Source: Chthoniobacter sp. (GTDB lineage Bacteria; Verrucomicrobiota; Verrucomicrobiia; Chthoniobacterales; Chthoniobacteraceae). Taken from it: a stretch of DNA of 39,370 bases. Position numbers and translations under genes: made by a program. The notes below the pieces were generated by a model. That model saw only the letters and a program-made list of their open reading frames with translations, did not search any database and had not been told where the DNA came from. The stretch spans positions 1-39,370 of the forward strand of contig JAQGOK010000016.1 of the NCBI GenBank assembly GCA_028293645.1, written 5' to 3'. The number at the start of each line of letters is the position of its first letter. The first letter of the stretch is position 1. Below, piece by piece: positions 2,632 through 37,500 of the stretch.

Positions 2632-5600
2632 ATGTTTTTTTCCCGCCTTCTCCGTACCTTTGCGTGCTTTTTAGCGGTTGTCCCTCTCGCCGGTGCTGCC
2701 CCGAGCGTTCAGACGCTGAACCCGACGGATGGCAGCACGGTCGCCGCTCTGACGAGCGTCGCCATCACCTTCAGCGAGGCAGTGACTGAAGTAGATGCCG
2801 ATGACTTGCTGATCAATGGCGACACCGCCCTTTCGGTCACGGGATCGGGCGTCGGAGCTTACACGTTCACTTTCTCCCAGCCGGTGGCCGGGCCGGTCAA
2901 CGTGGAGTTTGCCGGTGACAACGGCATTGTCGGCCTCGCAAATACGGGAGCCTTCGTGCCGCCATTGCCCTGGAGCTACACGCTGAGCGACACCATCGCT
3001 CCGGTGGCGACGCAGTTGACGCCTGCCGCCGGTTCCACGCTCGGCGTGGTGACCGAGGTGCGGGTTCTTTTTAGCGAATCGGTGGACGGGGTAAACGCGA
3101 GCGATCTGACGGTGAATGGCGTCGCCGCCTCGGCGGTAACCGGCAGCGGCCAGGGTCCGTATCTTTTCACCGTCACCCCACCTGCGGCCGGTGCGGTGAC
3201 GCTCGCCTGGGTCGCGGGCCACGGGATTCAAGACACCGCCACCACGCCGAACGCGTTTGCCGGTGGGAGCTGGAACGTGACCGTCAGCGCCACCGGTGCG
3301 GGCAACCTCGTGATCAATGAGTTCCTCGCCGGGAATGGCGTCGGAATCGCGGACGAGAATGGCGACCAGGAAGACTGGATCGAAATCCACAATCCCGGCG
3401 CGTCCGCAGTGAACCTGGCAGGCTGGGCGCTCACCGATGATGATCAGGAGCCGACGAAATGGGTTTTCCCGAGCCGGACGCTGAATGCCGGCGCCTATCT
3501 CGTGGTCTTCGCGTCGGCCAAAAACCGCCGGCCTGCGTCCGGCAACCTGCACACCAACTTCAAACTGAACGAAGGCGGCGGTTACCTCGCTTTGATAAAG
3601 CCCGACTCACCGAGTGTTATCTCGAGCAGCTTCGCCTACCCCCCGCAGCGCTTTGATTACAGCTATGGATCAAGTGCGGGGCAGGCGCGTTACTTCACCC
3701 CACCGACACCGAACGCAGCGAATAGCTCGACGGCGCTGACCGCTTTCGCCGCGGCGCCGAAGGCGAGCGTGGGACGTGGCTTCTTCCAGCAGCCGTTCGA
3801 TCTCGTGCTCAGCACGGCGACCCCGAACGCCACGGTCCGCTACACGCTCGATGGGAGTGAGCCGACCGCCACCACCGGCACAGTTTACACCGGTCCGATA
3901 AATATCAGCGGAACGCGCGTGCTGCGGACTGCGGCTTTCGGCACAGGGCTCGTGCCGAGCGCGACGGTCACCCACAGCTACATCTTCCTCGATCAAGTGC
4001 TGACCCAGCCGAACAATCCGGCGGGGTATCCGACGAATTGGGGCGCGCATACGGGCTTCTCCACCGGCGTGGTTCCGGCCGACTACGAGATGGATCCGCA
4101 GATCGTGAACGATCCGCTTTACACGCAGATGCTGAAGGACGGGCTGCGCCAGTTGCCGATCGTGTCGCTGGTGATGCCGATTGCCGACATGTTCGGACCG
4201 AACGGCATCAACACGAATCCGAACATCGCCAACAAAGGCTTCCCCGCGAAAAAGGGGTCCATGGAAATGGTGCTGCCGGATGGTTCCACTGCGTTCACCA
4301 TCACCTGCGGTATCAGCGCACACGGCAACGCCAGCCGTGACCCGCTCAAGAATCCGAAGCATGGCTTCAAGCTGAAGTTCAAAGGCGATTACGGCGCGAG
4401 CAAGCTGGAGTACCGGCTGTTCCCCGACTCGCCGGCGACCGAATTCGAAGACCTGGTGCTGCGCGCTGACTTCGGAACGAGCTGGCGGCACTGGAGTGAC
4501 GATTCCGGGAATGGAAGTGGTGTCTTTCAACGCAGCCGTGGCTCGAGGACGCGCGACGCCTGGGTGAAACACACGGCGCGGGACATGGGCGTGGTCGCTG
4601 GTCACAACCGCTACTGCCACTTGTTCATCAATGGCCTTTACTGGGGCACTTACGATTTTACAGAGCAGCCGACCGCGAGCTTCGGGGCGACTTACTTTGG
4701 CGGGACCGAATCCGACTACGACATCTACGAGCAGGGCTCGCTGAAGAATGGAACGGCGAACGCTTACAACGCGCTGACCGGGCTGCCCGCTGCAACGACG
4801 AACGCGATCTACGAGCAGTACAAAGCCACGCTCGATGTGCCGGAGTTCATCGACTACATGATGCTTCACTTCTACATGGGCCACCAGGATTGGGGGCTGA
4901 ACAAGAACTGGTATGCCATGCGCCAGCGCGGCGGTGGGACCTTCGGCACGGAAGGCAAGTTTCGTTACATCCCGTGGGATGGGGAAAATGTGCTCCTCGA
5001 TACGACGGTGAATCGCGTTCCGACCGCCCCGTCCGGAACGGGCGACGTGCCGAGCGGCGTGCACATCGATCTCGATGACAACCCGCAGTATCGCCTCGAT
5101 TTCGCCGACCGCGTCCACAAGCACATGGTCGCCCCGGATGGCGCTCTTTCGCCTTCGGCCAACATCGCCCGGTGGCAGACCTGGCAGGCCGTGATGGACA
5201 AGCCGATCGTCGCGGAAAGTGCGCGGTGGGGGGATTACCGGCGCGACGTGCACCCGTATCAGTCGGGCAGCTTTGTGCTCTACACGCGCAATCAGCATTG
5301 GATGGCGGAAAACAACCGCCTGGTGAACAGCTATTTCCCGGCGGCGAACCGCCACAACATCGTGCTCAATCAGTTTCGGGGTGCGGGGCTTTATCCCAAC
5401 GTCCCGGCGCCCGAGTTCCGGCAGACCAACACGAGCGGGCAACTTGTCGGTTCCGCCCAGGTGAATGCCGGCTATGTGCTGGCGATGCGGAATCCCGGCG
5501 CGGGAACGCTCCATTACACGACCAATGGCGTGGACCCGCGCGTCTATTATGCGGGCACTGTCGCAGCCGGCGCGGTCGCGTATTCCGAGCCACTGACTCT

Positions 5601-8529
5601 CAACAGCACCACCACGGTCAAGGCGCGCGTCCTCAACGGCAGCACTTGGAGCGCGCTGAATGAGGCGACTTTTCACATCGGCGTTCCCGCCATCCCGATC
5701 GCGATCAGCGAGCTCATGTACCATCCTCCAGGTGGGGATTTGCATGAGTTCATCGAGTTGCAAAACTATGGCGCGGAGACGCTGGATCTCGGCGGATTCC
5801 ACCTGGACGGGGTCGATTTCTTCTTCCCGCTCTACTTCAGTCTGGCGCCGGGTGCGCGCGTGGTTCTCGCTTCGAATGACGACCGCGCAGGCTTTGCGGC
5901 GCAGTACCCGGGCGTGGTCGTAGCGGGCTACTATGGTGGCTCCCTGAGCAATGGGAGCGAGACCCTTACGTTGTATAGCGACGAAGGGCAGCGCGTGGTC
6001 ACCGTGACCTACCACGACGAACCGCCGTGGCCGAGTCCGGCGGACGGTGGCGGTTACTCGCTGGAAATCTTTGATCCGGCGGGGGATCCGGATTCCGCAG
6101 CAAACTGGCGCAGAAGCGCGAACTTCAAAGGCACGCCCGGTCAGGCGAATTCGCTGACGCCGGCTTTTCCAATGGTGATCAATGAGGTGCTCGCGGAGAA
6201 CCAAGGCGCGGTAGCGGTAGCCGGTGGCGCCTACGATTATGTGGAGCTGAAGAACGTCTCGGGCGCACCCGTGGACTTACAGGGCTGGACTCTCTTCGCC
6301 GCGGGTACCGGTCACTCCTTTACCTCGAGCTTCGTTGTCCCTGCGGGCGGCTTCGCCGTCGTGCCGTGCTCACCCATGGCGCCGGTGGGCTCGCCGCGTT
6401 TGGCGGCGAGTATCCCGACCGCCGGGGCTCTCGTCCGGCTGCAGACTCCTGGCGGGATTGATGCGGATGCGATCCACTTTGGAAACCAGCTCTCAAACCT
6501 CTCCATCGGCCGAGTTGCCGGCTCGTGGACCCTGAACAATCCCACTCCCAACGCCGAGAACGTCGCGGCCCCAATCGCACCGGTCGCCGGCAATTTGGTG
6601 ATCAACGAATGGCTGTCCAACGCGGTGCCGGGCGGCAGCGATTGGCTCGAACTCTTCAACAAACACGCGACGTTGCCGGTGCCGCTCCACGGCCTCTTTT
6701 TCCAAACCGATTCCGAGTTGTTCCGCTTCCCGTTCCTGGCGTTTCTGGGAGCTGGTCAGTTCTTGCAGTTGTTCGCGGACGAACGTCCGGGCGTGGATCA
6801 GCTCGACTTCAAGTTGCCCGCCGCGGGGACTGCCCTGTCGATCCTCGATGCGAATGGCGTGGCGATCGACGCGATCAGCAAGGCCGATTTCGGCGTTCTG
6901 GCGGAGGGCATTTCTCGCGGGCGCAGCCCGGATGGCAGCGGCACGTTCTCGACTTTCAGCGACAGCACCTCCCCGGCGGATGCGAACTACATCAACACTT
7001 ACGCAGGTCCGGCTCTGAATGAGGTGCTCGCGCGCAACGTGCGCGGAGGTCCGGCACCCTGGGGGACCGTTTCGGATTGGCTCGAATTCCACAACTCCGG
7101 AACGAGTGCGGCTGATCTGAGCGGGTTCCGCTTGAGCAATGTGCCGGACTTCGGCACCGCCTGGCCTTTGCCGAGCGGCACGACGATGGCCGCCGGTTCG
7201 TATCTGACCATCTGGTGCGATGCTGAGCACGCGCCGAGCACTGCGGCAGGGCCGGATCTGAACTCCGGGCTCGATCTCGGCGACTCAAGCGGCGCGGTTT
7301 ATCTTTTCGATCGGCAGGGTCGGGTCGTGGCACAGCTCCGGTGGGGTTTTCAGGTCGCGAACGTCTCGATCGGTGTCAGTGCCGGAACGTGGCAGGCCCT
7401 GACGACGCCGACTCGCGGTGCCGCGAACAGCGCACCTGCTGCGCTCGGTGCGGTCAGTGCATTGCGCATCAACGAGTGGATGGCCCAGCCCACTGCGGGC
7501 GGGGACTGGTTCGAGTTGCACAACCCCAGCCCGGACCTCCTGAGCCTCGGCGGGCTTCTGCTGACCGACGATCCCAGCGAGCCGGGCGTGTCCAAGTTCC
7601 GGATCCCGGCGCTGAGTTTTATCGGTCCCAAAAGTTGGGTGAAATGGGAAGCGAGTGGCGCGACGGACATCGGCCGCAATCACGTGAACTTCAGCCTCGA
7701 TGTGGCTGGCGAGTCGCTCCGGCTGTCCAATAGCGACTCGGTTTTCACGCCGATCGACAGCGTGACGTTCGGGCTGCAAACGATCGGTGTTTCGGAGGGA
7801 CGGATCCTCGATGGTGCAAACAACGTTGTCGCCATGCCTGGCTCGCCGACTCCCGGCGCTCGGAACGTCCTTTTCCCTTCACCGTCGTTTACCGAGCAGC
7901 CGGCCAGCCAGACCGTGGCGCAAGGTGCCAACGTTACTTTCAACACGGCGGCGAGCGGATCGGCGCCCATGAGTTATCAATGGCTTCGCAACGGCTCGCC
8001 GGTGGCTGGCGCGACCAATCCGACCCTTGTCTTGAATGGCGTCACGACCGCGCAAGACGGCGCTTACATCCTGGTCGCGAGCAATACCGCGGGAAGCCTC
8101 TCGAGCAACCCCGCGTTCCTTGCTGTTCAGACCACCTTCGCACAATGGGCTACGACCAACGGCGTCGGCGCTGCTGGCGACGATCCCGATCGGGACGGCC
8201 TCAGCAATGCCGCAGAGTTCTTCCACAACCTGTCGCCGAATGACTCGGCAAGCGCTGTGGATCGCTCGGCGCTCCCAAAAGTCGGGTTGGAACCAGGCGC
8301 GCAGACTTACCTGACCCTCATCTATCGCCGCAGTGCCCGGGCGGTTTCCTCCAGCGTGCAATACGAACTCTCCTCCACGCTGGTCGCTGGCTCGTGGCTG
8401 CCGGCGACTCCGGCGATCACGGAAAACCTCGGTCCTGATCCAACGACGGGCGATCCGCTCATCAAGGTGAAGTTTGCAGTGTCTCCTGACGACAAGCGAC
8501 ACTTCGCCCGCCTGGTGATCACGCCGTGA
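2632..8529 (+). CDS. giant secreted CotH-kinase / lamin-tail / Ig-domain protein
   Basis: A 1965-residue exported protein with a clear signal peptide (residues 1 to about 23, ending AGAA). Order of modules, with approximate residues: two Ig-like SwmB/Big_5-type repeats (24-215); lamin-tail domain 1 (224-345, starts NLVINEFLAG); a chitobiase-like C-terminal module (384-455, VRYTLDGSEPT); a CotH-type kinase-fold domain (508-825, with SAHGNASRD, LFINGLYWGTYDFTEQP and YIPWDGENVLLD); a second chitobiase-like module (960-1010); five more lamin-tail domains starting near 1021, 1180, 1320, 1459 and 1610, each opening with a variant of INE; an Ig domain (1751-1834, with the YQW signature); and a C-terminal domain with DPDRDGLSNAAEF, a calcium-binding thrombospondin-3-like motif. 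CotH proteins are atypical kinases phosphorylating extracellular proteins; whether this one is active is inference. It is probably cell-surface or secreted and stands alone between opposed genes. Confidence 0.93.
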   Translation: MFFSRLLRTFACFLAVVPLAGAAPSVQTLNPTDGSTVAALTSVAITFSEAVTEVDADDLLINGDTALSVTGSGVGAYTFTFSQPVAGPVNVEFAGDNGIVGLANTGAFVPPLPWSYTLSDTIAPVATQLTPAAGSTLGVVTEVRVLFSESVDGVNASDLTVNGVAASAVTGSGQGPYLFTVTPPAAGAVTLAWVAGHGIQDTATTPNAFAGGSWNVTVSATGAGNLVINEFLAGNGVGIADENGDQEDWIEIHNPGASAVNLAGWALTDDDQEPTKWVFPSRTLNAGAYLVVFASAKNRRPASGNLHTNFKLNEGGGYLALIKPDSPSVISSSFAYPPQRFDYSYGSSAGQARYFTPPTPNAANSSTALTAFAAAPKASVGRGFFQQPFDLVLSTATPNATVRYTLDGSEPTATTGTVYTGPINISGTRVLRTAAFGTGLVPSATVTHSYIFLDQVLTQPNNPAGYPTNWGAHTGFSTGVVPADYEMDPQIVNDPLYTQMLKDGLRQLPIVSLVMPIADMFGPNGINTNPNIANKGFPAKKGSMEMVLPDGSTAFTITCGISAHGNASRDPLKNPKHGFKLKFKGDYGASKLEYRLFPDSPATEFEDLVLRADFGTSWRHWSDDSGNGSGVFQRSRGSRTRDAWVKHTARDMGVVAGHNRYCHLFINGLYWGTYDFTEQPTASFGATYFGGTESDYDIYEQGSLKNGTANAYNALTGLPAATTNAIYEQYKATLDVPEFIDYMMLHFYMGHQDWGLNKNWYAMRQRGGGTFGTEGKFRYIPWDGENVLLDTTVNRVPTAPSGTGDVPSGVHIDLDDNPQYRLDFADRVHKHMVAPDGALSPSANIARWQTWQAVMDKPIVAESARWGDYRRDVHPYQSGSFVLYTRNQHWMAENNRLVNSYFPAANRHNIVLNQFRGAGLYPNVPAPEFRQTNTSGQLVGSAQVNAGYVLAMRNPGAGTLHYTTNGVDPRVYYAGTVAAGAVAYSEPLTLNSTTTVKARVLNGSTWSALNEATFHIGVPAIPIAISELMYHPPGGDLHEFIELQNYGAETLDLGGFHLDGVDFFFPLYFSLAPGARVVLASNDDRAGFAAQYPGVVVAGYYGGSLSNGSETLTLYSDEGQRVVTVTYHDEPPWPSPADGGGYSLEIFDPAGDPDSAANWRRSANFKGTPGQANSLTPAFPMVINEVLAENQGAVAVAGGAYDYVELKNVSGAPVDLQGWTLFAAGTGHSFTSSFVVPAGGFAVVPCSPMAPVGSPRLAASIPTAGALVRLQTPGGIDADAIHFGNQLSNLSIGRVAGSWTLNNPTPNAENVAAPIAPVAGNLVINEWLSNAVPGGSDWLELFNKHATLPVPLHGLFFQTDSELFRFPFLAFLGAGQFLQLFADERPGVDQLDFKLPAAGTALSILDANGVAIDAISKADFGVLAEGISRGRSPDGSGTFSTFSDSTSPADANYINTYAGPALNEVLARNVRGGPAPWGTVSDWLEFHNSGTSAADLSGFRLSNVPDFGTAWPLPSGTTMAAGSYLTIWCDAEHAPSTAAGPDLNSGLDLGDSSGAVYLFDRQGRVVAQLRWGFQVANVSIGVSAGTWQALTTPTRGAANSAPAALGAVSALRINEWMAQPTAGGDWFELHNPSPDLLSLGGLLLTDDPSEPGVSKFRIPALSFIGPKSWVKWEASGATDIGRNHVNFSLDVAGESLRLSNSDSVFTPIDSVTFGLQTIGVSEGRILDGANNVVAMPGSPTPGARNVLFPSPSFTEQPASQTVAQGANVTFNTAASGSAPMSYQWLRNGSPVAGATNPTLVLNGVTTAQDGAYILVASNTAGSLSSNPAFLAVQTTFAQWATTNGVGAAGDDPDRDGLSNAAEFFHNLSPNDSASAVDRSALPKVGLEPGAQTYLTLIYRRSARAVSSSVQYELSSTLVAGSWLPATPAITENLGPDPTTGDPLIKVKFAVSPDDKRHFARLVITP

Positions 8530-10911: not shown

Positions 10912-11613
10912 ATGCATGTCCTGATCGCCGATGACGACGCCGTCACCCGTCTGCTGCTTAGCTCTGCGCTGACGAAGCTCGGGCATGAAGTGCACGAGGC
11001 GGCGAATGGCCCCGAAGCTTGCGCGGCTTGGGAGGGTGGGCAGTTCCCCCTCATCATTTCGGACTGGATGATGCCTGATCTCGACGGGTTGGAGTTCTGT
11101 CGCCGCGTTCGGGGTGAGCCGCGCACTGCTTATACCTACGTCATCCTGCTCACCTCCCGCGCGGGCAAAACGGATTTTCTGGAGGCGATGAACGCCGGCG
11201 CGGATGACTTCTTCACGAAGCCGTTCGAAAACGATGAGTTTGCCGCGCGCGTCCGGGTAGCCGAACGCATTCTAGGACTGCATGCGAACCTGCGAGCGGC
11301 CAATACGGATCTGGAACGGCGGGTCTTGGAACGTTCGGTCGAGCTTGCCGAAGCGCTGCAGGCAAAGAGTGAATTTCTTTCGCGTGCGAGTCATGAACTC
11401 CGCACCCCGATGGGTCACGTCCTCGGATATGCGCAGCTTCTGGCGATGGATCCGCTGACGGACGAGCAAGCCGTCAGTGTTAATCAGATTCTAACCAGCG
11501 GTGCTCATCTGTTGAAGGTGATCGACCGCATCCTCGCTATCTCGGACGCCCGGCCGGAAGATCTGAGTTTCCTCGAGACCGCTCCGGAAGTCCCAGGCAG
11601 CGACCCGTGTTGA
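10912..11613 (+). CDS. response-regulator receiver fused to HisKA, without ATPase domain
   Basis: A 233-residue protein. Residues 3-120 are a receiver domain: acidic pocket ADDD (6-9), phospho-acceptor D51 in LIISDWMMPDLDG, the switch Thr/Ser in ILLTSRAG, and the conserved Lys in FFTKPF. A helical linker leads to a HisKA dimerisation domain with phospho-histidine H161 in RASHELRTPMGHVLGYAQLL. The protein then stops without the HATPase domain that normally follows, so it cannot autophosphorylate; it may be phosphorylated in trans or act as a relay, or it may be the truncated remainder of a hybrid kinase. ATG 10912 begins the first beta strand. Downstream lie small frames of uncertain status and then a full-length sensor kinase on the same strand. 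Confidence 0.85.
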   Translation: MHVLIADDDAVTRLLLSSALTKLGHEVHEAANGPEACAAWEGGQFPLIISDWMMPDLDGLEFCRRVRGEPRTAYTYVILLTSRAGKTDFLEAMNAGADDFFTKPFENDEFAARVRVAERILGLHANLRAANTDLERRVLERSVELAEALQAKSEFLSRASHELRTPMGHVLGYAQLLAMDPLTDEQAVSVNQILTSGAHLLKVIDRILAISDARPEDLSFLETAPEVPGSDPC

Positions 11614-11834
11614 GCGGCCATTCATTTCGTCGCGCTGAACCACTCCCTTTCCATGAAAGCCCCGAAAGCGAACTCCAAACTCACCGCGGTGCGGAAGTCA
11701 GGCGCGCGGTCAGCAAGGACCAGGAACGCGGAGCAGTGCTGGCGCTCGATCAGGCTGCGATGGGCCGCAGCCGCCAGGGGGATGTGGTCAAGAGCAAGGG
11801 TCTGCGCACCCGCCGCAACGGCGGCAAGCTCTGA
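11607..11834 (+). other. doubtful small frame between the two signalling genes
   Basis: This stretch of the 545-bp gap between the receiver-HisKA gene and the next kinase has no gene that I recognise. A frame opening at GTG 11607 encodes 75 residues. Its last 40, from about [20 protein letters not shown] to [11 protein letters not shown], read like a small basic protein, while a different frame opening at ATG 11653 begins [19 protein letters not shown], which looks like a plausible start. A single frameshift near 11700-11710 would join them into a protein of about 60 residues. The stop overlaps the next ATG (ATGA at 11831-11834), as in coupled gene pairs. It could be a decayed small gene or chance. 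Confidence 0.25.
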
Positions 11835-12058
11835 TGAAAACGCTTTTCAAACTCTTCCCGGGGCAGGAGGGACCGCGTGCCGCGTTGCTCCAGAGGCCGC
11901 TCGAAGAAATCGTCGGCTACACCTTCGAGACTTTCATGGTGACCGAAGAGCGCAGGGTGAGCGGCACGGCGTCTCGATCCGCCGCGAGCGCCGCCATGGC
12001 CACGGTTTCGGGCTCCACAGTGCTGCGCTGGCGGCCAGGGAAATGGGCGGCTCGCTGA
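11834..12058 (+). pseudogene. small frame fused into a decayed kinase fragment
   Basis: ATG 11834 overlaps the preceding stop by 4 bp and opens a 74-residue frame. The first 40 residues ([40 protein letters not shown]) look like a real small protein of unknown family. After about position 11955 the frame reads through, out of phase, a stretch that encodes a histidine-kinase ATPase box in another frame. The C-terminal half is therefore probably junk created by a junction between two unrelated sequences. I do not recognise the N-terminal part; it could be the beginning of a gene whose remainder has been lost. Confidence 0.3.
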
Positions 12059-12162
12059 CCGCGCAGAGTGACGGTCCCGGGTGCGGGGCCTTATTCGTCC
12101 TCACCTCGGTCCCGCCGTCCTTGAGTCCTTCTGTCGAACCGCCTGGAGTTCGCGGTTCATGA
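11967..12162 (+). pseudogene. fragment of a histidine-kinase HATPase domain
   Basis: In the frame of position 11968 the translation reads [19 protein letters not shown], then [20 protein letters not shown] and CGALFVLTS. This aligns with the last part of the adjacent full-length kinase ([20 protein letters not shown], then [20 protein letters not shown]), covering the F and G2 boxes and the final strand of the ATPase domain. No N or G1 box and no in-frame start can be found upstream, so it is a remnant rather than a gene. By eye the DNA is only roughly 70 percent identical to the neighbour, so it is not a recent duplication. It is of the [13 protein letters not shown] subtype, unlike the SHELRTP-type HisKA domain upstream. 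Confidence 0.65.
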
Positions 12163-15071
12163 TGTCCCTCAACCAGCTCTTCTCGACCGGCGGGTTTATC
12201 CCGCACGGGCAGAGTTACCTCCCGGATGCCAATGTGATGTGGCTTCACATCGTCTCGGATGCGCTCATCGCGCTGGCCTACTTCGCCATCCCGATGACGA
12301 TGATCTACATCGGACGGAGGCGCAAAAATCTGCCCTTCGACGGGATGTTTGCATGGTTCGGCGTTTTCATCCTCGCCTGCGGCGCCACGCACGCTCTCGA
12401 GATCTTGAACATCTGGCAGCCGCTCTATCGCTTCTCCGGAGTCGTGAAGGCCTTCACCGCACTGGCTTCCATCATTTGCGCGACCGTGCTGATCCGGATG
12501 ATTCCGCGCCTGATCGCCATGCCGAGTCTGGCCAAAATGCAGGAAAGCGAGGAGCGCTTCTCCGGCGCGTTCGAACATGCGCCCATCGGCGTCGCGCTGG
12601 TTTCACCGGAGGGTGGCTGGATCAAAGTCAACCGGGCGCTCTGCGAGCTGGTGGGTTACTCCGAGGCCGAGTTGCTCAAGGGCAGGTTCCAGGACATCAC
12701 GCATCCGGAGGATCTCGAAAGGGATATGGAGCATCTGCGCGGAATGCTCACGGGAGAGATCGCCATCTACGAGATTGAGAAGCGCTATCTCCATCGACAG
12801 GGCCATGTTGTGCCGGTTCAGCTTAATGTGTCACTCGTCCGCGATGTCCGAGGCCAGCCACGGTACTTCATCTCGCAAATCCAGGACATCGCCGCCCGCA
12901 AGCAGGCCGAAGCAAGGCAACGCGCGGAAGAAGAGCGTTACCTCCGCCAGCGCAATGCTCTGATCAATGTCACCCGGGGAGGTGCGCTGAGTGGTGACGA
13001 CCTGAGCGGCACGATGCGGCGACTCACCGAAACCAGCGCCGCGACTTTGGGCGCCGCGCGGGTCAGCGTTTGGCGCTATAACGAAGAGCGCACCGCCATC
13101 CGCTGCGTGGACCTATACGAGCGGGAGGCGGATCGGCACACCGCCGGCATGGAGTTGTCCGCGGCGGACTACCCGGCATACTTCAGAGCGCTGGCCACGC
13201 AGCAGGTGATTGCCGCGGAAGACGCGCATCTCGACCCGCGCACCAGCGAGTTCGCGGAGAATTATTCCCGGCCGTCCGGGATCACCTCGATGCTGGACGC
13301 GCCCATTCACCTGGGTGGAGCGGCCGAAGGGGTCCTGTGTCACGAGCATGTCGGCCCGCCGCGTCGATGGACGGGAGATGAGGAAACTTTCGCCGTGGCC
13401 GTGGCGAATGTCGCGTCCCTGGCCCTGGAAGGTTCAGAGCGCCAACGAGCGGAGCAGCAGTTGCGAGAGAGCGAAGGCCGCTACCGCGCCGTGGTGGAGT
13501 GGTCGCCGCAAGCCATGATCGTCCATCGCGGGGTGCAGGTGCTTTTTGCAAACTCAGCGGCTGTCGCGATGTTTGGCGGAACCTCCCTGCAGGATCTCGC
13601 CGGCAAGCCGGTTCTCGACCTGGTCCATCCCGATTCGCGTCAGCTCGTTCTCGAGCGGATCCGGAGTCATGCGGACCCGGGCGCCATCCACCCGATGGCG
13701 GAGCAGAGATTGCTCAAGCTGGACGGTACGCCCATCGATGCCGAAGTCCGTGGCACCTCGATCTCTTTCGGAGGAGAGCCCGCGATCCTCGCTTCGATCC
13801 AGGACGTCACGGAGCGCAAACGGGCTGCGGAGGATCTGGCGGCCAGTGAAGAACTGCTCCGCCAGTTCATCCGGCACAGCCCGGCTGCCATCGCCATGCT
13901 GGATACGCAGATGCGTTACGTGCAGGCCAGCGAACGTTGGATTCAGGATTACCAACTCACTGGAGAGGAAATCATCGGCCGGGGGCACTACGAGATTTTC
14001 CCCCACATGCCGCAGCGTTGGAAAGACGCCAGCCAGCGGGTGCTCGCCGGTGCGATCGAACGCTGTGACGAGGACCACTTCACGCAGGCCGATGGCTCGG
14101 TTGATTGGTTGCAGTGGGAGGCACGCCCCTGGCGGGACGCGAGCGGAGAAATCGGCGGGCTGATTTTCTTCACTCAAGTGATCACCGGGCGCAAACGCGC
14201 GGAAGCGGAAACGGAGCGGCTGAGCCGGCAACTGATCGGCCTCTCGCGGCAGGCGGGGATGGCGGAAGTCGCCACGAGCGTGCTGCACAATGTCGGCAAC
14301 GTCCTGAATAGCGTGAATATCTCGGCCGCACAGGCCTCCGATAAAGTCCGCCACAGTTGTGGCGTCGATCTCCTGCGCGTGGCCGCTCTGCTGGAAGAGC
14401 ACCGGGACGATCTACCGAAATTTCTCGGCACCACCCAGGGTGCGCAGTTGCCCGGCTTCATCACCGCCCTGGCGGACGCGCTCGCCGCGGAGCAGCGCGT
14501 CGCCCTGGAGGAGTTGGGATCGCTGACGACGCACATCGATCACATCAAGGAAATCGTCGCCATGCAGCAGACCTATGCTCGCATCGCCCCGATGATCGAA
14601 GACATCTCGCCAGTGAGCCTGGTGGAGAATGCCCTGCAGATGAATGGAGCAGCGCTTGAACAGCAAGGCGTGGAGATCGTTCGCGAGTACGCAGGCGCGC
14701 GGTCTTCCATCCGGGTCGATAAACACAAAGCGCTGCAGATCCTGGTGAACCTGATCCAGAATGCCGGTCACGCACTGGCGGATGGCGAAACTGACCGCAA
14801 ACGCCTGATCCTGCGCATCCGCGAGGACGACGGCACCACGGTCGAAATTGAGGTGGCCGATGAAGGAGTCGGGATTCCTGCCGGGAATCTGACGCGCATC
14901 TTTGAACACGGTTTCACCACGCGCAAAGAGGGGCACGGTTTCGGTCTGCACAGCGCAGCGCTCGCCGCGCAGGAACTCGGCGGACTGCTCAGCGTGCAGA
15001 GTGATGGACCGGGGAAAGGCGCCGTGTTCACCCTCGCACTGCCGATGCAGGGAGGAGTTCTCAAAGCATGA
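12159..15071 (+). CDS. sensor histidine kinase with ethylene-receptor-like copper-binding N-terminus
   Basis: A 970-residue kinase. Residues 25-112 form three membrane helices that match the ethylene-binding domain of plant ETR1 and cyanobacterial homologues: [34 protein letters not shown] and [19 protein letters not shown]34, Y41, I44, P45, I71, C74 and H78 all sit exactly 9 positions after ETR1 D25, Y32, I35, P36, I62, C65 and H69; C65 and H69 hold the copper ion. Then follow PAS (127-251), GAF (261-428), PAS (435-554), PAS (560-683), a dimerisation region with probable phospho-His H710 in [11 protein letters not shown], and an HATPase domain with N box [11 protein letters not shown]1 DEGVGIP and G2 [13 protein letters not shown]. 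There is no receiver domain. The start is ATG 12159 (or 12162), with GGAG about 10 nt upstream; an in-frame ATG at 12081 would overlap the kinase fragment. A decayed regulator overlaps its stop. Confidence 0.93.
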
Positions 15072-18571: not shown

Positions 18572-18710
18572 GCGCCGCCACGGTAACCAGCCGCGTCGGA
18601 GCCCGGAAGCTCGCGCTCAGATGGACTCCGCCATTCACACGGTTCACGGCGTTGTTTGAACGCAAAGCAGCGTTGACCACTCTGCGACTGAGTTCGAAGC
18701 TGTTTTCGCG

Positions 18711-19055
18711 ATGCGCTGTCGTCTTCTGTTGCTCTTCCTGGTCCTCGCAGGCCTGGCCTTGCCTCCGGCTTGGTCAACGCAAGCGTGTGGTCTCGCGGCT
18801 TCGGCAGAGACGTGTGGCACGTGCTGCCACGAGGTGGAGGTGTCTTGCTGCCCCTCGGCTGTGCCGGTGCGCAAAGCCCCGACCGCGCTCGAACAAGTTG
18901 CGTCGGTTTCGGTGAAGCAATGGGTCGTGCCCATCACGATGGTTCTGGCGCCAGCTCCCGCGCTGTTGCTGCAGACCCCTTTGCAGCAGCGGCGGAAGGC
19001 TGCGCGGCTTCCGGTACTGCGTCCGTTGGAACGCTCCGGCGTGCGGCTGATCTGA
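18711..19055 (+). CDS. small exported Cys-rich protein upstream of metal efflux genes
   Basis: A 114-residue protein that I do not recognise. It has a signal peptide (MRCRLLLLFLVLAGLALPPA), then a Cys-rich stretch with six Cys (QACGLAASAETCGTCCHEVE followed by VSCCPS) containing CxxCC and CC pairs suited to binding soft metals. A hydrophobic stretch (about 73-90, VVPITMVLAPAPALLL) and a basic tail follow. It lies 160 bp upstream of the CusB-like gene on the same strand, so a role in periplasmic metal binding or sensing before export is a reasonable inference. ATG 18711 directly begins the signal sequence. It could also be a lineage-specific peptide of unrelated function. Confidence 0.65.
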   Translation: MRCRLLLLFLVLAGLALPPAWSTQACGLAASAETCGTCCHEVEVSCCPSAVPVRKAPTALEQVASVSVKQWVVPITMVLAPAPALLLQTPLQQRRKAARLPVLRPLERSGVRLI

Positions 19056-19174
19056 GATCGTTCTTATAGGCGCAGTGTGCCCGCAGCTCGCGGCGCATCG
19101 CCTCCGTTTGTCGTCCGCCGCCTTCGCGCGCGGACGTTCTGTGACTCTTCACGCCGGTTTCCCGGCAGACACTC

Positions 19175-19191
19175 GCCCGCGGTTCGCGGGC
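19175..19191 (+). other. GC-rich hairpin between the Cys-rich gene and cusB-like gene
   Basis: GCCCGCG (19175-19181), loop GTT and CGCGGGC (19185-19191) form a perfect 7-bp stem 24 bp upstream of the CusB-like start codon. A short pyrimidine run (TCCTTTC) follows, but not a proper T tract. It could reduce read-through or stabilise the downstream message; a strong Rho-independent terminator is not supported. Confidence 0.35.
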
Positions 19192-19215
19192 TCCTTTCAG
19201 CTTCCTGCTTTTCTC

Positions 19216-20913
19216 ATGAAGACCCGTTTCGCTCTTCTCCTTCTTCTCATCGCAACTGCTGCCGGCGCAACCGGCTGGTGGTTGGGTCATCGTCATACCG
19301 AGCCTCATCGCGCCGCCGGTTCCGCCGAACGTAAAGTGCTGTTTTACCAGAGTCCGATGCATCCGTGGATCAAGTCGGAGCAGCCGGGTAACTGCACCAT
19401 CTGCGGGATGAAGCTCGTCCCGGTGATGGAAGGTCAGCCGGACGGTGCAGCCACCTCAGAGACGACCACCAAGCTCAGCGCCAGCAGCCTCAGCGTCGTT
19501 GATATTCAGACCGCAACCGTCACCCGCCAGCCGCTGAAGCGGACGCTGCGCGTCGCCGGCACCATCGACGACGACGATTCCAAACACCGCCGTCTCTCCG
19601 CCTACGTGGACGCGCGCATCGACAAGCTCTTCGTCAACTTCGTCGGCGCGGAAGTGACCGCGGGCGAGCCGCTCGCTTCGCTTTACAGCCGCGACCTGCT
19701 CGTTGCGCGGAGCGAATACGCGCAGGCGGTGCGGCGTCCCGCTTCACCCGAGCGAGAGACATTTCTGGCGGCGAGCACGAACAAGCTGCGGCGCATGGGC
19801 CTTACGCTCGAACAGATCGCAAAGCTGCCGGGCCAGACCGGCGACACCTTCGACCTGGTCGCGCCGGCGTCCGGCACGGTGGTCGAACGCAAGGTCTATG
19901 AAGGCCAGTACGTGAAGGAGGGCGACGTGCTCTTCGAGATCGCGGATTTCACCAGGATGTGGTTCGTCTTCGATGCGTACGAACGCGACCTCGCGTGGCT
20001 CCGCGTTGGCCAATCCGTGGAGATCACCACACCGAGTGTGCCGGGGAAAACGTTCACCGCGCCGGTGGCTTTCATCGACCCGAATCTCGTGCCCGCGACC
20101 CGCTCCGCGAAGGTGCGGGTGGTGCTCGAGAATCCGCACCTCGGCGACCCGGCGAAGCATCAACATGAGCTGCTGCACAAGGTCTTCGCCGAAGGTCGAA
20201 TTCACGCCGCAACCGAGCCGGTGTTGGCTGTGCCGCGGACCGCGGTGCTCTCGGCGGGAGGCGGGCCGCTCGTTTACGTGGCAAAAACCGGGCACGACTT
20301 TGAGCCGCGCGCGGTGACACTCGGCCGCGCGGGCGATGAGGTTTGGGAGATCGTTGCGGGACTCCAGGAAAACGAGCGGGTCGTCACGACGGGAAACTTG
20401 CTCATCGACGCGCAAGCGCAGCTCGATCGGCCGCAGCAGGTCGTGAGTTCGGGGGCGACGACTGCCGAGCCGTCCACTCCCGCTCAACACGAGGCTGTGA
20501 AGCAACTCATGGAGACGGCTTCAGCCGTGGGGGAAGCGTTGGCTTCCGACGATCTCGCTGCGCACAACACGCGCATCGCGGCGCTGCATTCCGCAGCCAT
20601 GAAAACCGCCGAGGAACTCGGTGCAGCGGGGCGCCGGTTGGGCGAGGTCGCGCACGTCGGCGAGGCGAAGGATCTGGTCGCCGCGCGGAAGCAGTTTTAT
20701 CCCGTCAGCATGGCGGTCGCGGAAATCGCGACGGCTTTGCGCAAACGCGATCGGAGTGCCGTCACGGCCAAGGTTTTTGAGTGCCCGATGGCTCGTTCCG
20801 CGGTGCCGAGCGCTGACACAAATCAAGGCCGCTGGGTGCAACTGAACGGGCCGATTCGCAATCCGTTTTTCGGTGCCGAAATGCTCGAGTGTGGCGCGGA
20901 GGTGAAGCCGTGA
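19216..20913 (+). CDS. cusB: CusB-like periplasmic adaptor of a heavy-metal RND efflux pump
   Basis: A 565-residue membrane-fusion protein with an N-terminal signal or anchor (MKTRFALLLLLIATAAGATG). Residues 43-70 are a heavy-metal-binding domain: FYQSPMHPWIKSEQPGNCTI followed by CGMKLVPV, with C60 and C63 as the CxxC pair and M48/H49 nearby. The adaptor core follows, with barrel-sandwich halves (ARIDKLFVNFVGAEVTAGEP and FDLVAPASGTVVERKVYEGQ), a beta-barrel region (MWFVFDAYERDLAWLRVGQS) and a membrane-proximal domain. Residues about 415-560 match DUF3347, ending FECPMARSAV and WVQLNGPIRNPFFGAEMLEC. The CusB family hands Cu(I)/Ag(I) to CusA. ATG 19216 starts the signal segment; the frame open to 19075 is not needed. 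Its stop overlaps the cusA-like start. No outer-membrane channel gene (cusC) is adjacent. Confidence 0.92.
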   Translation: MKTRFALLLLLIATAAGATGWWLGHRHTEPHRAAGSAERKVLFYQSPMHPWIKSEQPGNCTICGMKLVPVMEGQPDGAATSETTTKLSASSLSVVDIQTATVTRQPLKRTLRVAGTIDDDDSKHRRLSAYVDARIDKLFVNFVGAEVTAGEPLASLYSRDLLVARSEYAQAVRRPASPERETFLAASTNKLRRMGLTLEQIAKLPGQTGDTFDLVAPASGTVVERKVYEGQYVKEGDVLFEIADFTRMWFVFDAYERDLAWLRVGQSVEITTPSVPGKTFTAPVAFIDPNLVPATRSAKVRVVLENPHLGDPAKHQHELLHKVFAEGRIHAATEPVLAVPRTAVLSAGGGPLVYVAKTGHDFEPRAVTLGRAGDEVWEIVAGLQENERVVTTGNLLIDAQAQLDRPQQVVSSGATTAEPSTPAQHEAVKQLMETASAVGEALASDDLAAHNTRIAALHSAAMKTAEELGAAGRRLGEVAHVGEAKDLVAARKQFYPVSMAVAEIATALRKRDRSAVTAKVFECPMARSAVPSADTNQGRWVQLNGPIRNPFFGAEMLECGAEVKP

Positions 20914-23900
20914 TTCCCCGGCTGATCGAGTGGTCGCTGCGCAACCGCTTCATGGTCGCGTGCGGCACACTCTTCGTCGTCGCGTTCGGGATCTTCGAGC
21001 TGCGACGCACGCCGGTGGATGCCATCCCGGACTTGAGCGAGAACCAGGTGATCGTCTTCGCCGACTGGCCCGGGCGCAGCCCGCAGGAAGTAGAGGACCA
21101 GATCACGTATCCGCTTTCGGTGAATCTGCAGGGCCTCGCCGGCGTGCACACCGTGCGCGCCAATTCCATGTTCGGCTTCTCGCTGTTGACCGTGATCTTC
21201 GATGAGAAGATCGACAACTACTTCGCCCGCACGCGCGTCCTGGAACGGCTCAATTACCTCGGTGATCTTCTGCCGGGCGGCGTTGTTCCGAAGCTCGGAC
21301 CGGACGCGACGGGGCTCGGCTGGGTCTTTCAATACTACCTCGATGTGGACGCGTCGCAGTCGCCGAACGGCGGCTACGATCTCGGCGAACTGCGCTCCGT
21401 GCAGGATTGGTTCGTGCGATATCAGCTCAACGCGGTGCCGGGTGTCGCGGAAGTGGCGAGCATCGGCGGCTTTGTCCGGCAGTATCAGATCGAGGTGAGT
21501 TCCGCGAAAATGCGCGCGGTCAATGTCTCGCTGCAGCAGGTGATGGAGGCGGTCGGGCAGAGCAACCTCAACGTCGGCGGCAAGGTGATCGAAGAAAACG
21601 GCATGGAGTTCGTGGTGCGCGGTCTCGGGCTGATCACGTCCGTCAGCGATTTGGAGAAGACGGTGCTCACCGAGCGCGAAGGCACACCGGTCTATCTGCG
21701 CGATGTGGCAACCGTGCAGATCGGTGGCGAGTTTCGGCGTGGCGCGCTCGACGTGAACGGGCGCGAAGTGGTGGGCGGAATCGTGGTGATGCGCACGGGC
21801 GAAAATGCGCACGACGTGATCCGACGCGTGAAGGAAAAGGTCGCGCAGATAACGCCCAGTCTTCCGCCGGGCGTGACGATCCGCGCGTTCTACGACCGCA
21901 GCGAACTGATCGATCGGACGATCGATACGCTCAAGCACGCGCTCACCGAGGAGATCATTCTCGTGACGCTCGCGCACATCGTTTTCCTCTTCCACTTCCG
22001 CAGCATCCTTATCGTCACCTTTCCGCTGCCGGTTTCGATTCTGATCTCGTTCATCCTGATGCGGCAGTTCGGCATCACCTCGAACATCATGTCGCTGAGC
22101 GGCATCGCGATCGCGATCGGGGTGCTGGTCGATGCGGCGATCGTGATGACCGAGAATGTGCTGCGGCATTGTGAGGAAGCGGAGCAGCGCAAGGGCGCGC
22201 CGTTGACCCGGCAGGAGACTTGGGAGACGACGCTCGCGGCTTCGAAGCAGGTCGGGAGGCCGATCTTTTTCGCGATGGCGATCATCATTCTCGCCTTCGT
22301 GCCGGTGTTCGCGCTGACCGGGCAGGAGGGGAAACTTTTCCACCCGCTCGCGTTCACGAAAACCTTCGCGATGATCGGCTCGACGCTGCTCGCCGTCACC
22401 ATCGTGCCGGTGCTCTGCGCGACGCTCGTGCGCGGGCCTTTCCATTCGGAAAACAAAAACTGGGTGATGCGTGGGCTGCTGCGGATCTACGAGCCGACGC
22501 TCGATTGGGCGCTGGGCCATCGTCGGACGGTGCTCGCGGGTGCGACGGTGATGTTGCTCGCCGCGTTGGTGCTCGCGTTTGGATTGCCGCGGGCGCTGAC
22601 GGAACGGGTGCCGGCCCTGCATGGCTTCACTGGGATGGGGCGCGAATTCATGCCGCCGCTCAATGAGGGCTCGCTGCTTTTCATGCCGGTGCTGCTGCCG
22701 CAAACGAGCCTAACGGAGGTGAAGCGCATCATGGCCTGGCAGGATCGCGTGATCAAAGAAACGCCGGAAGTGGCATCCGCCGCCGGCAAACTCGGGCGCG
22801 CTGAATCGGCCACCGACCCGGCACCGGTTGAGATGATCGAGACGACGATCATGCTCAAGCCGCCGTCCGAATGGCGCGCTGGCATGACCCAGGATCAGCT
22901 CGTCGCGGAGCTCACGGCCAAGCTCACGCAAGTCCCCGGCTACGTGCCTGGTTTTCTCCAACCAATCGAGAACCGCATCCTGATGCTGAGCACTGGCATT
23001 CGTGCGCAGGTCGGGATCAAAATCCTCGGTGACGATCTCGCTGCGCTGCAGAACAAAGCCTTCGAAGTCGAGAAAGTGGTGCGCTCGATTCCCGGCGCGG
23101 TCGGGGTCGCGCCTTCGCGCGTCCAAGGCAAGCCGTATGTCGAGATTGCGGTCAATCGCGAGGCCATGGCGCGCTTCGGTTTGCGCGCGCAGCAGTTGCT
23201 GGATGTAGTGGAGACGGGCATCGGCGGGAAGAACGTGGCAACCACGATCGAGGGCCGGCAACGCTTTCCGATTCAGGTCCGCATTGCGCGCGAGGAACGC
23301 GATGATCTCGAGCGACTCGGCGATCTGCTGGTCGCGACGCCCGCCGGTCAGCACATTCCGCTCGGGCAGCTCGCGGACATTCGGCGGAACATCGGTGCGA
23401 GCGAGATCGCCAGCGAGAACGGGCGGCTGCGCGTCTTCGTGCAGGCGAATGTGCAGGGGCGCGATCTCGGCGGATTCGTGGACGAAGCACGCCGTCGCAT
23501 CGCGCATGAGATCACTCTACCGAAAGGAATGACGATCGAGTGGAGCGGCCAGTACGAGAACCAGGTGCGCGCCGCGCAGCGGCTGCTGATCATCGGGCCG
23601 ACCGCGATCGCGATTATTTTCCTGCTGCTCTACATCGTTTACGGCTCAGTGCAGGAAGCGGCGCACGTGATCCTGGCGGTGCCGTTCGCGCTCACCGGCG
23701 GCGTCTTTTTGCAATGGCTGCTCGGTTACCCGTTCAGCGTTGCCGTGTGGGTCGGCTACATCGCGCTCTTCGGCACCGCCATCCAGACTGGTGTCGTGAT
23801 GGTTGTTTATCTCGAAGAGGCACTGGACCGAAAGCGCCGCGAAAAGGGTGGGACGTTCAGCCGCACTGATCTGCTCGACGCAATCAAGGAAGGCGCGCGG

Positions 23901-24137
23901 CTGCGGCTCCGCCCGAAAGTCATGACCGTGGCGACGATCGTCGCGAGCTTGCTGCCAATCATGTGGAGCACGCGCACTGGCGCGGAAGTGATGAAGCCGC
24001 TCGCGACGCCCGTGATCGGCGGAATGGTGAGCAGTCTCCTGCACATCCTGATCGTCACGCCGGTGATCTTCGCGTGGCTCCGCGAGCGGGAGCTCCGGCG
24101 GGAAATGCTGTCGCCTACAGCTTCTCCGGCTCCTTGA
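20910..24137 (+). CDS. cusA: CusA/CzcA-family heavy-metal RND efflux transporter
   Basis: A 1075-residue inner-membrane proton antiporter of the HME-RND family, the usual length. It starts IPRLIEWSLRNRFMVACGTL and contains TPVDAIPDLSENQVIVFADW, the family signature for the first periplasmic loop, and GVLVDAAIVMTENVLRH in TM4, with the Asp of the proton relay. In the second loop LLFMPVLLPQTSL, VEMIETTIMLKPPSEW and LMLSTGIRAQVGIKI each place a Met where, from memory of E. coli CusA, the Cu/Ag Met triad lies; this favours Cu(I)/Ag(I) over Zn/Co. The start is GTG 20910, which overlaps the cusB-like stop (GTGA) and follows GGAGG at 20898-20902; a GTG at 20889 is less well placed. Its last 23 bp overlap the end of the convergent E2 gene. 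Confidence 0.94.
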   Translation: MIPRLIEWSLRNRFMVACGTLFVVAFGIFELRRTPVDAIPDLSENQVIVFADWPGRSPQEVEDQITYPLSVNLQGLAGVHTVRANSMFGFSLLTVIFDEKIDNYFARTRVLERLNYLGDLLPGGVVPKLGPDATGLGWVFQYYLDVDASQSPNGGYDLGELRSVQDWFVRYQLNAVPGVAEVASIGGFVRQYQIEVSSAKMRAVNVSLQQVMEAVGQSNLNVGGKVIEENGMEFVVRGLGLITSVSDLEKTVLTEREGTPVYLRDVATVQIGGEFRRGALDVNGREVVGGIVVMRTGENAHDVIRRVKEKVAQITPSLPPGVTIRAFYDRSELIDRTIDTLKHALTEEIILVTLAHIVFLFHFRSILIVTFPLPVSILISFILMRQFGITSNIMSLSGIAIAIGVLVDAAIVMTENVLRHCEEAEQRKGAPLTRQETWETTLAASKQVGRPIFFAMAIIILAFVPVFALTGQEGKLFHPLAFTKTFAMIGSTLLAVTIVPVLCATLVRGPFHSENKNWVMRGLLRIYEPTLDWALGHRRTVLAGATVMLLAALVLAFGLPRALTERVPALHGFTGMGREFMPPLNEGSLLFMPVLLPQTSLTEVKRIMAWQDRVIKETPEVASAAGKLGRAESATDPAPVEMIETTIMLKPPSEWRAGMTQDQLVAELTAKLTQVPGYVPGFLQPIENRILMLSTGIRAQVGIKILGDDLAALQNKAFEVEKVVRSIPGAVGVAPSRVQGKPYVEIAVNREAMARFGLRAQQLLDVVETGIGGKNVATTIEGRQRFPIQVRIAREERDDLERLGDLLVATPAGQHIPLGQLADIRRNIGASEIASENGRLRVFVQANVQGRDLGGFVDEARRRIAHEITLPKGMTIEWSGQYENQVRAAQRLLIIGPTAIAIIFLLLYIVYGSVQEAAHVILAVPFALTGGVFLQWLLGYPFSVAVWVGYIALFGTAIQTGVVMVVYLEEALDRKRREKGGTFSRTDLLDAIKEGARLRLRPKVMTVATIVASLLPIMWSTRTGAEVMKPLATPVIGGMVSSLLHILIVTPVIFAWLRERELRREMLSPTASPAP

Positions 24138-34599: not shown

Positions 34600-37500
34600 G
34601 TGAGTAATTCAACCCACTCCACTCCTCCTCCGGCCGCCCCGCTTACCGCGGGTCAGAAGTTCGCTGGCTGTTACGTTCTCAAGCAACACCTCAGCGACGA
34701 GAATGGGACGCAGATATGGCTCGCCGAAGATGAAGTCCTCGGGGAGGCTGCTGCGCTCCATTTTCTCCCATTGGTCGTCTCAACGGACGCTGCAGCGTTG
34801 GACGAACTCAAGCAGGAAGCGAAGCGGAACCGGCAGTTGATTCACGCGCACATTCTGCGCGTGCATGACGTGTTGGAAGACGCGGGCCGCGTTGCAATTG
34901 TTACCAACGTTCCTGCGGGAAAGACATTGGCGATGCTCCTCCGGGACAAGGGCCGCTTCACCGCAGACGAGGTGAAACCGTGGATCGACCAACTCGCGCG
35001 CACTTTGGAAGAGGCACACCGGATCCATTTCGTTGCCGGGTCGCTCGCGCCTGAACACATTTTCCTCGACGCCGCTGGCAAGGTGACGATTGCCCATTTC
35101 GGCCTGAGCAAAATTGTAGGAAAAGCGCTCTTGCGAGCAAAGCTTCCGGAGGGTGTTGCGGCCGGAGCGTTGCTCAGCCCGCAGTTGTTGAGCGAGCAAC
35201 CTGCATCTCGCAGCGATGATGTCTATGCGTTGGCCGCTTTGATCCATCGGCTGGTTCGCGGCGCACCGCTTTTCGAGGGAGAAGACGTGTCCAGACAGGT
35301 GCAGGACACGGTTCCCAAGAAACTATCAGAGTTCGGACTGGCGACAGGCGCGCTGCCATCTGCTTGGGACGAAGCAATCGCCGAGGCGTTGAGCAAGACT
35401 GCCGAGGGCCGGCCGCAAACACCTGCGCAATTGTTGGCACGCCTGGCAGTCGAGCGACCCGCTACAACAGCGGCCGCTCCGGCGATCGAGGAAGCAGTGG
35501 CTGCACCCGCTCCAGTAGCCGCTGCGCCGATCGTCCCGCCGACCGCGGTGGTGGTTGCGCCGGAACCGCCACCGAAAAAGGCAATCGAGATTCTTCGCGA
35601 GAGAGCCGCGCTGGCAAAGCAGGGTGAGGTTAAGAAGGAAGCTTCCGCGCCGGCCGCGACTCAAGCACCTCTGAGTGCCCCTGCGGCGACCGCGGCTTCG
35701 TCCGAACCCCCGCCAAAGAAGGCCGCGGAAATGCTCCTCGAACGCGCAGCGCTTGCCAGGCAAATGGCTGCTTCGAAGGGCGCCGAACCGTCGGAAGAAA
35801 AACCCAAGCGCAGCGAGTCGGCATCCGGAAAGTCGCCCTTTTCGGGCATTTCGTCTGGTTCGTCGGCTTCAAGCCGTCCCCGAGTGCCGCTCACAGCGCT
35901 GGTCGGAGCGGCAGTTTTGATTGTGGTTGGTTTGGCCAGTTATTACTTCAGCAATCTCGGACCAAAGCCGCAACCAACGACCGAGATCAGCACGCGTGAT
36001 TTGGCCGAAGGAGCCGAGTTGACCACCGTGAAAAACTCCTCCGTCCCGGCGACGGTTGCGGAAGTGAAGCCGGTGCCGACGGTGGTCGCTGAGGTCAAAG
36101 CAAGCACCCCCGCGCCTGCGACCCCGGCTGTGGTGCTCGCGGCAGCGGGAGATTCACCTCGCAAACCTTCCGAAAACGCTCGGCCGCCGGTCCCTCCCAC
36201 CTCGGTTGCGGAGGTCGCCAGCGGTGATCCCGCGGCGGCTCTCGAGAAGTTGAGACAGGCAGCCGCCAGCGCAGAAAAAACGCATCAGGAACTCGTGCGA
36301 CAGCAAAAGGCCGCCGAGGCTGCGGCCGCGGAAGCGCAGAAAGCCATGGATGCTCGCAGCAAGACTGCCGGACCCGCAGCAAAGGCCGCCGAAGAACTGA
36401 TGGCTCTGCGCACTCGCCGTGAGGAAGAACAAAAGGCGGCGGAGGCGGCCGCCAGGGAGGCGCAGGAGATCGCCGCGGAGAAAGCGAAAGCTGCCGAAGC
36501 AGCCAAAAAGGCTGTTGCTGATTTGGATGCGCAGAACAAGGGGAAAATCGAAGCGCAGCAGAAGGCTCAGGCCGAGGTGCAGGCGCTGCAGCGTTCTCTG
36601 CAGGAAAAGCAACAACTCGCCGCCGATTCGGCCAAGGCCGTTGCGGAGGCCGAGGCCACGCGGCAGCAGTACGCCGCTTCGCTCAAACAAACGGAGCAGG
36701 AAGTCGCGATGGCCAGGGAGGCGAGCGAGGCTGCTGCCGCCGAAGCGGAAAAGAAGCGTCAGGCGATGGATTCGGAACGACGCAAGGTGGATGATGAACT
36801 CGCGTCGATGCGCTCAATGTTCGAGCAGAAGATGAAGGAGCTCGAGGAGCGCCGGAAGCAAATCGAAGCGGGAGGCTCCGCCAGCGCACCCGCTCCCTCT
36901 GTCGCGCCTCCAGTCGCCAGCGCCCAGGTGCCGGTGCCTATGACTGCTCGCGCCACGCCTTCGCCTGCGGGAGTCGCGCCGCTGGCGATGAAAGCCGATC
37001 CGGTGGCCGCCCCTGCTACGATCCCTGAGCCATCAAAGCCGACCGCGCCTGCCGCTGACGCTGCGGAAAACAGTCTTGGGATGCGTTTCGTCACCGTAGG
37101 CCCAGTGCAGTTCTGTATCTGGCAGACGCGCGTCATGGACTTCGATGTTTTTGCGCGTGCGGTGAATCTAAAAACGGCCGGTTGGAAAGCGCCGGGCTTT
37201 AAGCAAACGCCCGAGCACCCGGTGGTAAACGTTTCGTGGAATGAGGCGGTTGCCTTCTGTAAGTGGCTCACCGAGAAGGAGCGCAAGGAGGGGAAGCTGC
37301 CTGCCGGCCAATTCTATCGACTCCCGTACGACCTCGAATGGAGCCAGGCTGTGGGCCTCTCCGACGAGACTGGAAAGACTCCCGAAGCGCGCGATATGGG
37401 AGTGCCGGACATCTATCCGTGGGGGACTGCATGGCCTCCTCCAAAAGGAGCCGGAAATTACACGGGTGAGGAGACCAACTCCGACGTGGCCATTAAGGGC

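Follow-up and report, generated by a model that had tools for sequence, protein, structure and literature searches.

The window (the whole stretch of DNA analysed, 39,370 nucleotides) encodes a 970-residue sensor histidine kinase whose N-terminal membrane domain, to judge from its profile match, belongs with close to complete certainty to the ETR1_N family of ethylene receptors. The kinase is a further example of a bacterial receptor type that was already known, and it is predicted that it probably senses ethylene in a Cu(I)-dependent manner and drives a phosphorelay. From the alignments, its seven-residue site is intact, yet its lineage shows changes at positions associated with the site. The gene and its parts were delimited as follows:

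12159..15071, forward strand: sensor histidine kinase, 970 amino acids (Chthoniobacter sp. contig JAQGOK010000016.1, reading frame and translation)
12213..12215, forward strand: Ser19 codon, AGT; Cys in 62 of 65 relatives (alignment)
12228..12320, forward strand: membrane helix 1, residues 24-54, with D34, Y41, I44 and P45 (AlphaFold, alignment)
12234..12518, forward strand: ethylene-binding-type domain ETR1_N, residues 26-120 (Pfam PF25487, E = 1.3e-35)
12339..12416, forward strand: membrane helix 2, residues 61-86, with I71, C74 and H78; C74 and H78 are the predicted Cu(I) ligands (AlphaFold)
12426..12518, forward strand: membrane helix 3, residues 90-120, with K97, corresponding to ETR1 K91 (AlphaFold)
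12477..12479, forward strand: Cys107 codon; Thr in 62 of 65 relatives (alignment)
12540..12917, forward strand: PAS domain 1, residues 128-253 (TIGR00229, Pfam PAS_3)
12999..13427, forward strand: GAF domain, residues 281-423 (PF01590, E = 3.2e-14)
13479..13808, forward strand: PAS domain 2, residues 441-550 (PF00989)
13872..14198, forward strand: PAS domain 3, residues 572-680 (PF08448)
14286..14288, forward strand: putative phospho-acceptor His710, in an H box that includes LHNVGNVLN (sequence; conserved in L136, a relative described below)
14721..15050, forward strand: HATPase_c catalytic domain, residues 855-964 (PF02518, E = 4e-16)

The reading frame opens with an ATG at 12159, and GGAG lies a little over ten bases 5' of it. 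An earlier, sequence-only reading had described a PAS-GAF-PAS-PAS histidine kinase, and this architecture was recovered through Pfam and TIGR00229 domain matches, the HATPase included. Pfam HisKA gave no match at the H box around His710; the N box, DEGVGI (G1) and GHGFGLHSA (G2) motifs of the HATPase_c domain were read by eye, and the protein is, on these motifs, a histidine kinase with a complete catalytic set and predicted activity. The GAF domain, by eye, has no Cys at what we take to be the usual position of bilin attachment. A three-helix domain was indeed found within the span first proposed for it, 12159-12500, but its third helix reaches slightly further, to approximately 12518.

The proposed kinship of the N-terminal residues with the ETR1 N-terminal family was confirmed by the Pfam profile, which matched residues 26-120 with 122 bits, the cut-off being 27 (PF25487, E = 1.3e-35). 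Seven residues of ETR1, namely D25, Y32, I35, P36, I62, C65 and H69, are needed for ethylene binding. Translation and BLASTP placed D34, Y41, I44, P45, I71, C74 and H78 exactly where the earlier reading had them, at a constant offset of 9 from these positions, in an alignment that was also gap-free over the first two helices as claimed (residues 23-78 against ETR1 14-69, E = 6e-18). Gaps against ETR1 were confined to the loop before helix 3. The BLASTP query consisted of ETR1 residues 1-119, and the Pfam profile is a test independent of it. The count of seven residues in ETR1, together with the roles of D25, C65, H69 and K91, has been published (PMC11819568, PMC12643061); K97 of the Chthoniobacter kinase aligns with ETR1 K91 and was kept in 63 of 65 aligned relatives (97%). 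In the same set, D34, I71, C74 and H78 were each kept in 98-100% of sequences (C74 in 65/65, H78 in 64/65), and the Cys-His copper pair was further upheld by the Pfam profile, by the alignment with AzoEtr1 and by conservation across some 150 relatives. A chance likeness of three hydrophobic helices to ETR1 is so improbable that it may be set aside, because the match to a curated family is of this strength, because polar residues are co-conserved, and because at least 577 relatives were confirmed in named genomes (a list drawn by conserved motifs and biased towards intact sites).

Structure prediction with AlphaFold, from 63 aligned rows (two plasmid-derived rows and the AzoEtr1 row having been left out), produced three long helices at residues 24-54, 61-86 and 90-120, with a mean pLDDT of 90.4. 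Helix 1 begins about 10 residues before D34, helix 2 ends about 8 after H78, and helix 3 begins about 7 before K97, so that, judged by position along the helices alone, all three are 7-10 residues from helix ends on the same side; by the same measure D34, C74 and H78 are at similar depth. This placement, read from helix depth only, is compatible in the model with one shared site for D34, H78 and K97. Among solved structures, the domain had no match by sequence and no significant match by fold, and the ethylene-binding domain appears to be without a deposited structure.

The copper site had been called intact, and this was true of all seven residues; however, the N-terminal Cys that accompanies other seven-residue sites is missing, its position being occupied by Ser19. 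The first Cys in the kinase is C74, and it thereby lacks the N-terminal Cys of the dimer disulfide proposed for functional receptors. Among 146 other complete domains, this Cys (position 19) was present in 126/126 with all seven residues, in 136/137 with the Asp-Cys-His triad, in 10/11 triad domains short of the full seven, and in none of the 9 without the triad; hence, within the examined set, the Chthoniobacter domain was the only seven-residue domain without it. Elsewhere, loss of Cys19 coincided with loss of the triad, locus L034 excepted. Fisher's test gave p = 1.5e-13 for the association, but this value is overstated because the rows are related; mapped onto the tree, the losses number 4-5 as independent events, and nearly all of them agree with the association (sign test, p = 0.125). 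The single N-terminal Cys of cyanobacterial receptors has been suggested to form a dimer disulfide, as the two plant N-terminal Cys residues do (PMC6682694). For bacteria the need for this Cys is no more than a proposal (PMC6682694), so its absence leaves membership of the domain family intact.

Ser19 was not the sole departure from strong consensus among the 65 aligned relatives, which also included Trp22 to Pro, Leu48 to Met and Thr107 to Cys; Ser19, Pro22 and Cys107 fall at positions otherwise 91-95% conserved. The Chthoniobacter domain sits on a long branch, of 0.84-0.94 where the median is 0.25-0.32; trees of 131-136 columns left its placement unsettled and transfer between phyla unsupported. 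A base error at codon 19 might be suspected, given that the assembly is fragmented (225 contigs, 80% complete) and that Ser and Cys may differ by one base, but general divergence is likelier in view of Pro22, Cys107 and the length of the branch.

In the mechanism favoured here, a dimer of the kinase would sit in the inner membrane. In helix 2 of each chain, C74 and H78 would together bind one Cu(I), and D34 would hold H78 in position and also contact the helix-3 residue K97. Binding of ethylene or some other small olefin to the copper would shift helix 3; the PAS-GAF-PAS-PAS relay would in turn alter autophosphorylation of His710 and phosphotransfer to an unlinked response regulator. Binding of copper and of ethylene, signalling through helix 3 and phosphotransfer are inferred from ETR1, SynEtr1 and AzoEtr1, and it is not certain that the Chthoniobacter domain has retained affinity for ethylene. 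A copper P-type ATPase in the same genome (617 bits, cut-off 397) favours the sensor reading insofar as it establishes that copper handling is present, though such ATPases are near-universal.

The strongest alternative, although itself unlikely, is that ethylene binding by the domain is being eroded by drift, such that fold and copper ligands stay, affinity or dimer stability is lower, and the PAS and GAF domains provide the main signal. The changes at Ser19, Pro22 and Cys107 are in keeping with this, as is the loss of Cys19 together with the triad elsewhere, apart from L034. So too is L136 (genome G401, from the host family), a 1076-residue kinase and the closest relative with the Chthoniobacter-type kinase architecture. 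Its ETR1_N domain is 48% identical, it has PAS repeats, and its kinase core has the same type of H box and is 54% identical to the Chthoniobacter core; it differs in having more PAS domains, no GAF match, and substitutions of Cys19 to Tyr, Y41 to Cys and P45 to Ala. As L136 is without these three site-associated residues, constraint on the lineage may be relaxed. Against drift, all seven residues and K97 are identical in the Chthoniobacter domain, which would be unlikely under long neutral drift, and the Cys/triad association comprises just the 4-5 independent losses noted above. A tentative reading, again improbable, is that a seven-residue ethylene-type domain works without the N-terminal Cys, either as a disulfide-free dimer or with another ligand or affinity; with the Cys-less, partly eroded L136 it would then represent a natural intermediate between copper-dependent receptors and copper-free ETR1_N domains of the same order.

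It is more doubtful still that the domain binds Cu(I) but responds to copper itself, as the periplasmic Cu(I) supply, rather than to ethylene. The conserved Asp-Cys-His triad would suit such a sensor, as would the CusBA-type efflux genes 4-9 kb downstream, where HlyD_D23/HMBD and AcrB-family genes occur at 19075-24137. However, genes downstream of the kinase to 18571 are mostly on the opposite strand, and these stand between it and the efflux pair. Moreover, no CusB or CusA homologue was found near ETR1_N genes in ten host-family regions of 12.6-19 kb and 80 shorter named regions, and the proximity in the window is therefore probably accidental; a copper-operon link between the kinase and the CusBA-like genes was considered and dropped on this ground. 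Binding of Cu(I) by ETR1 is also extremely tight (Kd about 1e-15 M; PMC12643061), which is ill-suited to a sensor of copper level. The pair itself (18700-24137) comprises a CusB-like membrane-fusion protein, which carries a heavy-metal-binding domain, and a pump of the CusA/AcrB family; it is likely a copper/silver-type efflux system, and a short reading frame rich in Cys comes before it.

The kinase neighbourhood contained no gene pointing to an output, and no response regulator gene adjoins the kinase in an operon. Upstream, 10915-11613 encodes a receiver-HisKA protein without HATPase, while 11962-12102 matches the kinase's own C-terminal tail at 66% over 47 residues, and the corresponding DNA at 72% over 105 bases. 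The region 10915-12103 is probably what is left of a kinase gene that has decayed or recombined.

Returning to the probable ethylene sensor, the Chthoniobacter kinase can be compared with three known systems. A tblastn search of plasmid records matched 19, seven of them from Azospirillum, and one locus (L041:2980-4557) was identified as AzoEtr1 of A. brasilense Sp7, with 525 residues that begin MFGGVEAF and a receiver gene overlapping its own. Residues 1-130 of AzoEtr1 are reported to show saturable 14C-ethylene binding, the D35A and C75A mutants having been used as predicted non-binding forms (PMC11819568). It aligns with the Chthoniobacter domain without gaps (35% identity over 124 residues) and shares all seven residues, the helix-3 Lys, and a PAS and histidine kinase arrangement. 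In contrast to the 970-residue multi-PAS Chthoniobacter kinase, it is 525 residues long and has a single PAS domain together with a conventional HisKA; the gene for its cognate receiver overlaps the 3' end of the kinase gene, and it has an N-terminal Cys, C20, where the Chthoniobacter kinase has Ser19. SynEtr1 (slr1212, Synechocystis PCC 6803) and GeiEtr1/2 (Geitlerinema) likewise carry the domain on a multi-domain histidine kinase, but each has one N-terminal Cys, proposed to form the dimer disulfide (PMC6682694), where the Chthoniobacter kinase has none. SynEtr1 is also a light sensor (PMC6682694), whereas the Chthoniobacter GAF domain is, by eye, without the usual bilin Cys. Arabidopsis ETR1 shares the seven residues at offset 9, a GAF domain and a histidine-kinase-type transmitter; unlike the present kinase, it has no PAS domain, carries a C-terminal receiver, dimerizes through a C4/C6 disulfide, and signals in plants independently of kinase activity.

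The distribution of ETR1_N in the host phylum, Verrucomicrobiota, was patchy: it occurred in 24 of 388 genomes sampled across the phylum, 52/384 of the host class, 26/213 of the order and 8/40 of the family. Of four further genus members only one had it, and none of 14 control genomes did. A contig scan with a single sequence returned no relatives; a tighter alignment found them, and weak matches L024 (29 bits) and L025 (21 bits) were left out of comparisons. The 80 kept from the named-genome relatives were mostly from Cyanobacteria, where the family is common, with others from Verrucomicrobiota, Acidobacteriota, Myxococcota, Eremiobacterota and Betaproteobacteria. Putative ethylene receptors have been described in several bacterial phyla (PMC11819568), and diversity of output domains has been noted as well; of six papers returned by a full-text search, none, judged by title or abstract, dealt with such a receptor in Verrucomicrobia. 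Ethylene-receptor-type sensors thereby extend to a phylum whose members are abundant in soil and where the papers found do not report them, and ethylene perception by such bacteria becomes testable. The family-wide pattern of the N-terminal Cys poses a mutagenesis question on its role, to which the Chthoniobacter kinase is a natural exception.

Within the same order, six loci from another family, f2 (L023, L165, L166, L167, L169 and L170), had ETR1_N domains whose scores clearly exceed the Pfam cut-off and whose copper ligands are lost, Asp and His being replaced in all six and Cys in a part of them. Pfam matched HisKA in L166 and, below cut-off, in L023, with a receiver directly after it and no HATPase, and the same HisKA-receiver arrangement without HATPase was seen by eye in L167 and L169. 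By sequence comparison, the f2 loci share a conserved, copper-free and apparently kinase-less ethylene-receptor-like architecture. Elsewhere in the window, 2632-8529 encodes a 1965-residue protein with six lamin-tail domains and CotH kinase and chitobiase-C-terminal-like domains, and 34600-37779 encodes a protein kinase domain fused to a C-terminal FGE-sulfatase (formylglycine-generating enzyme-like) domain.
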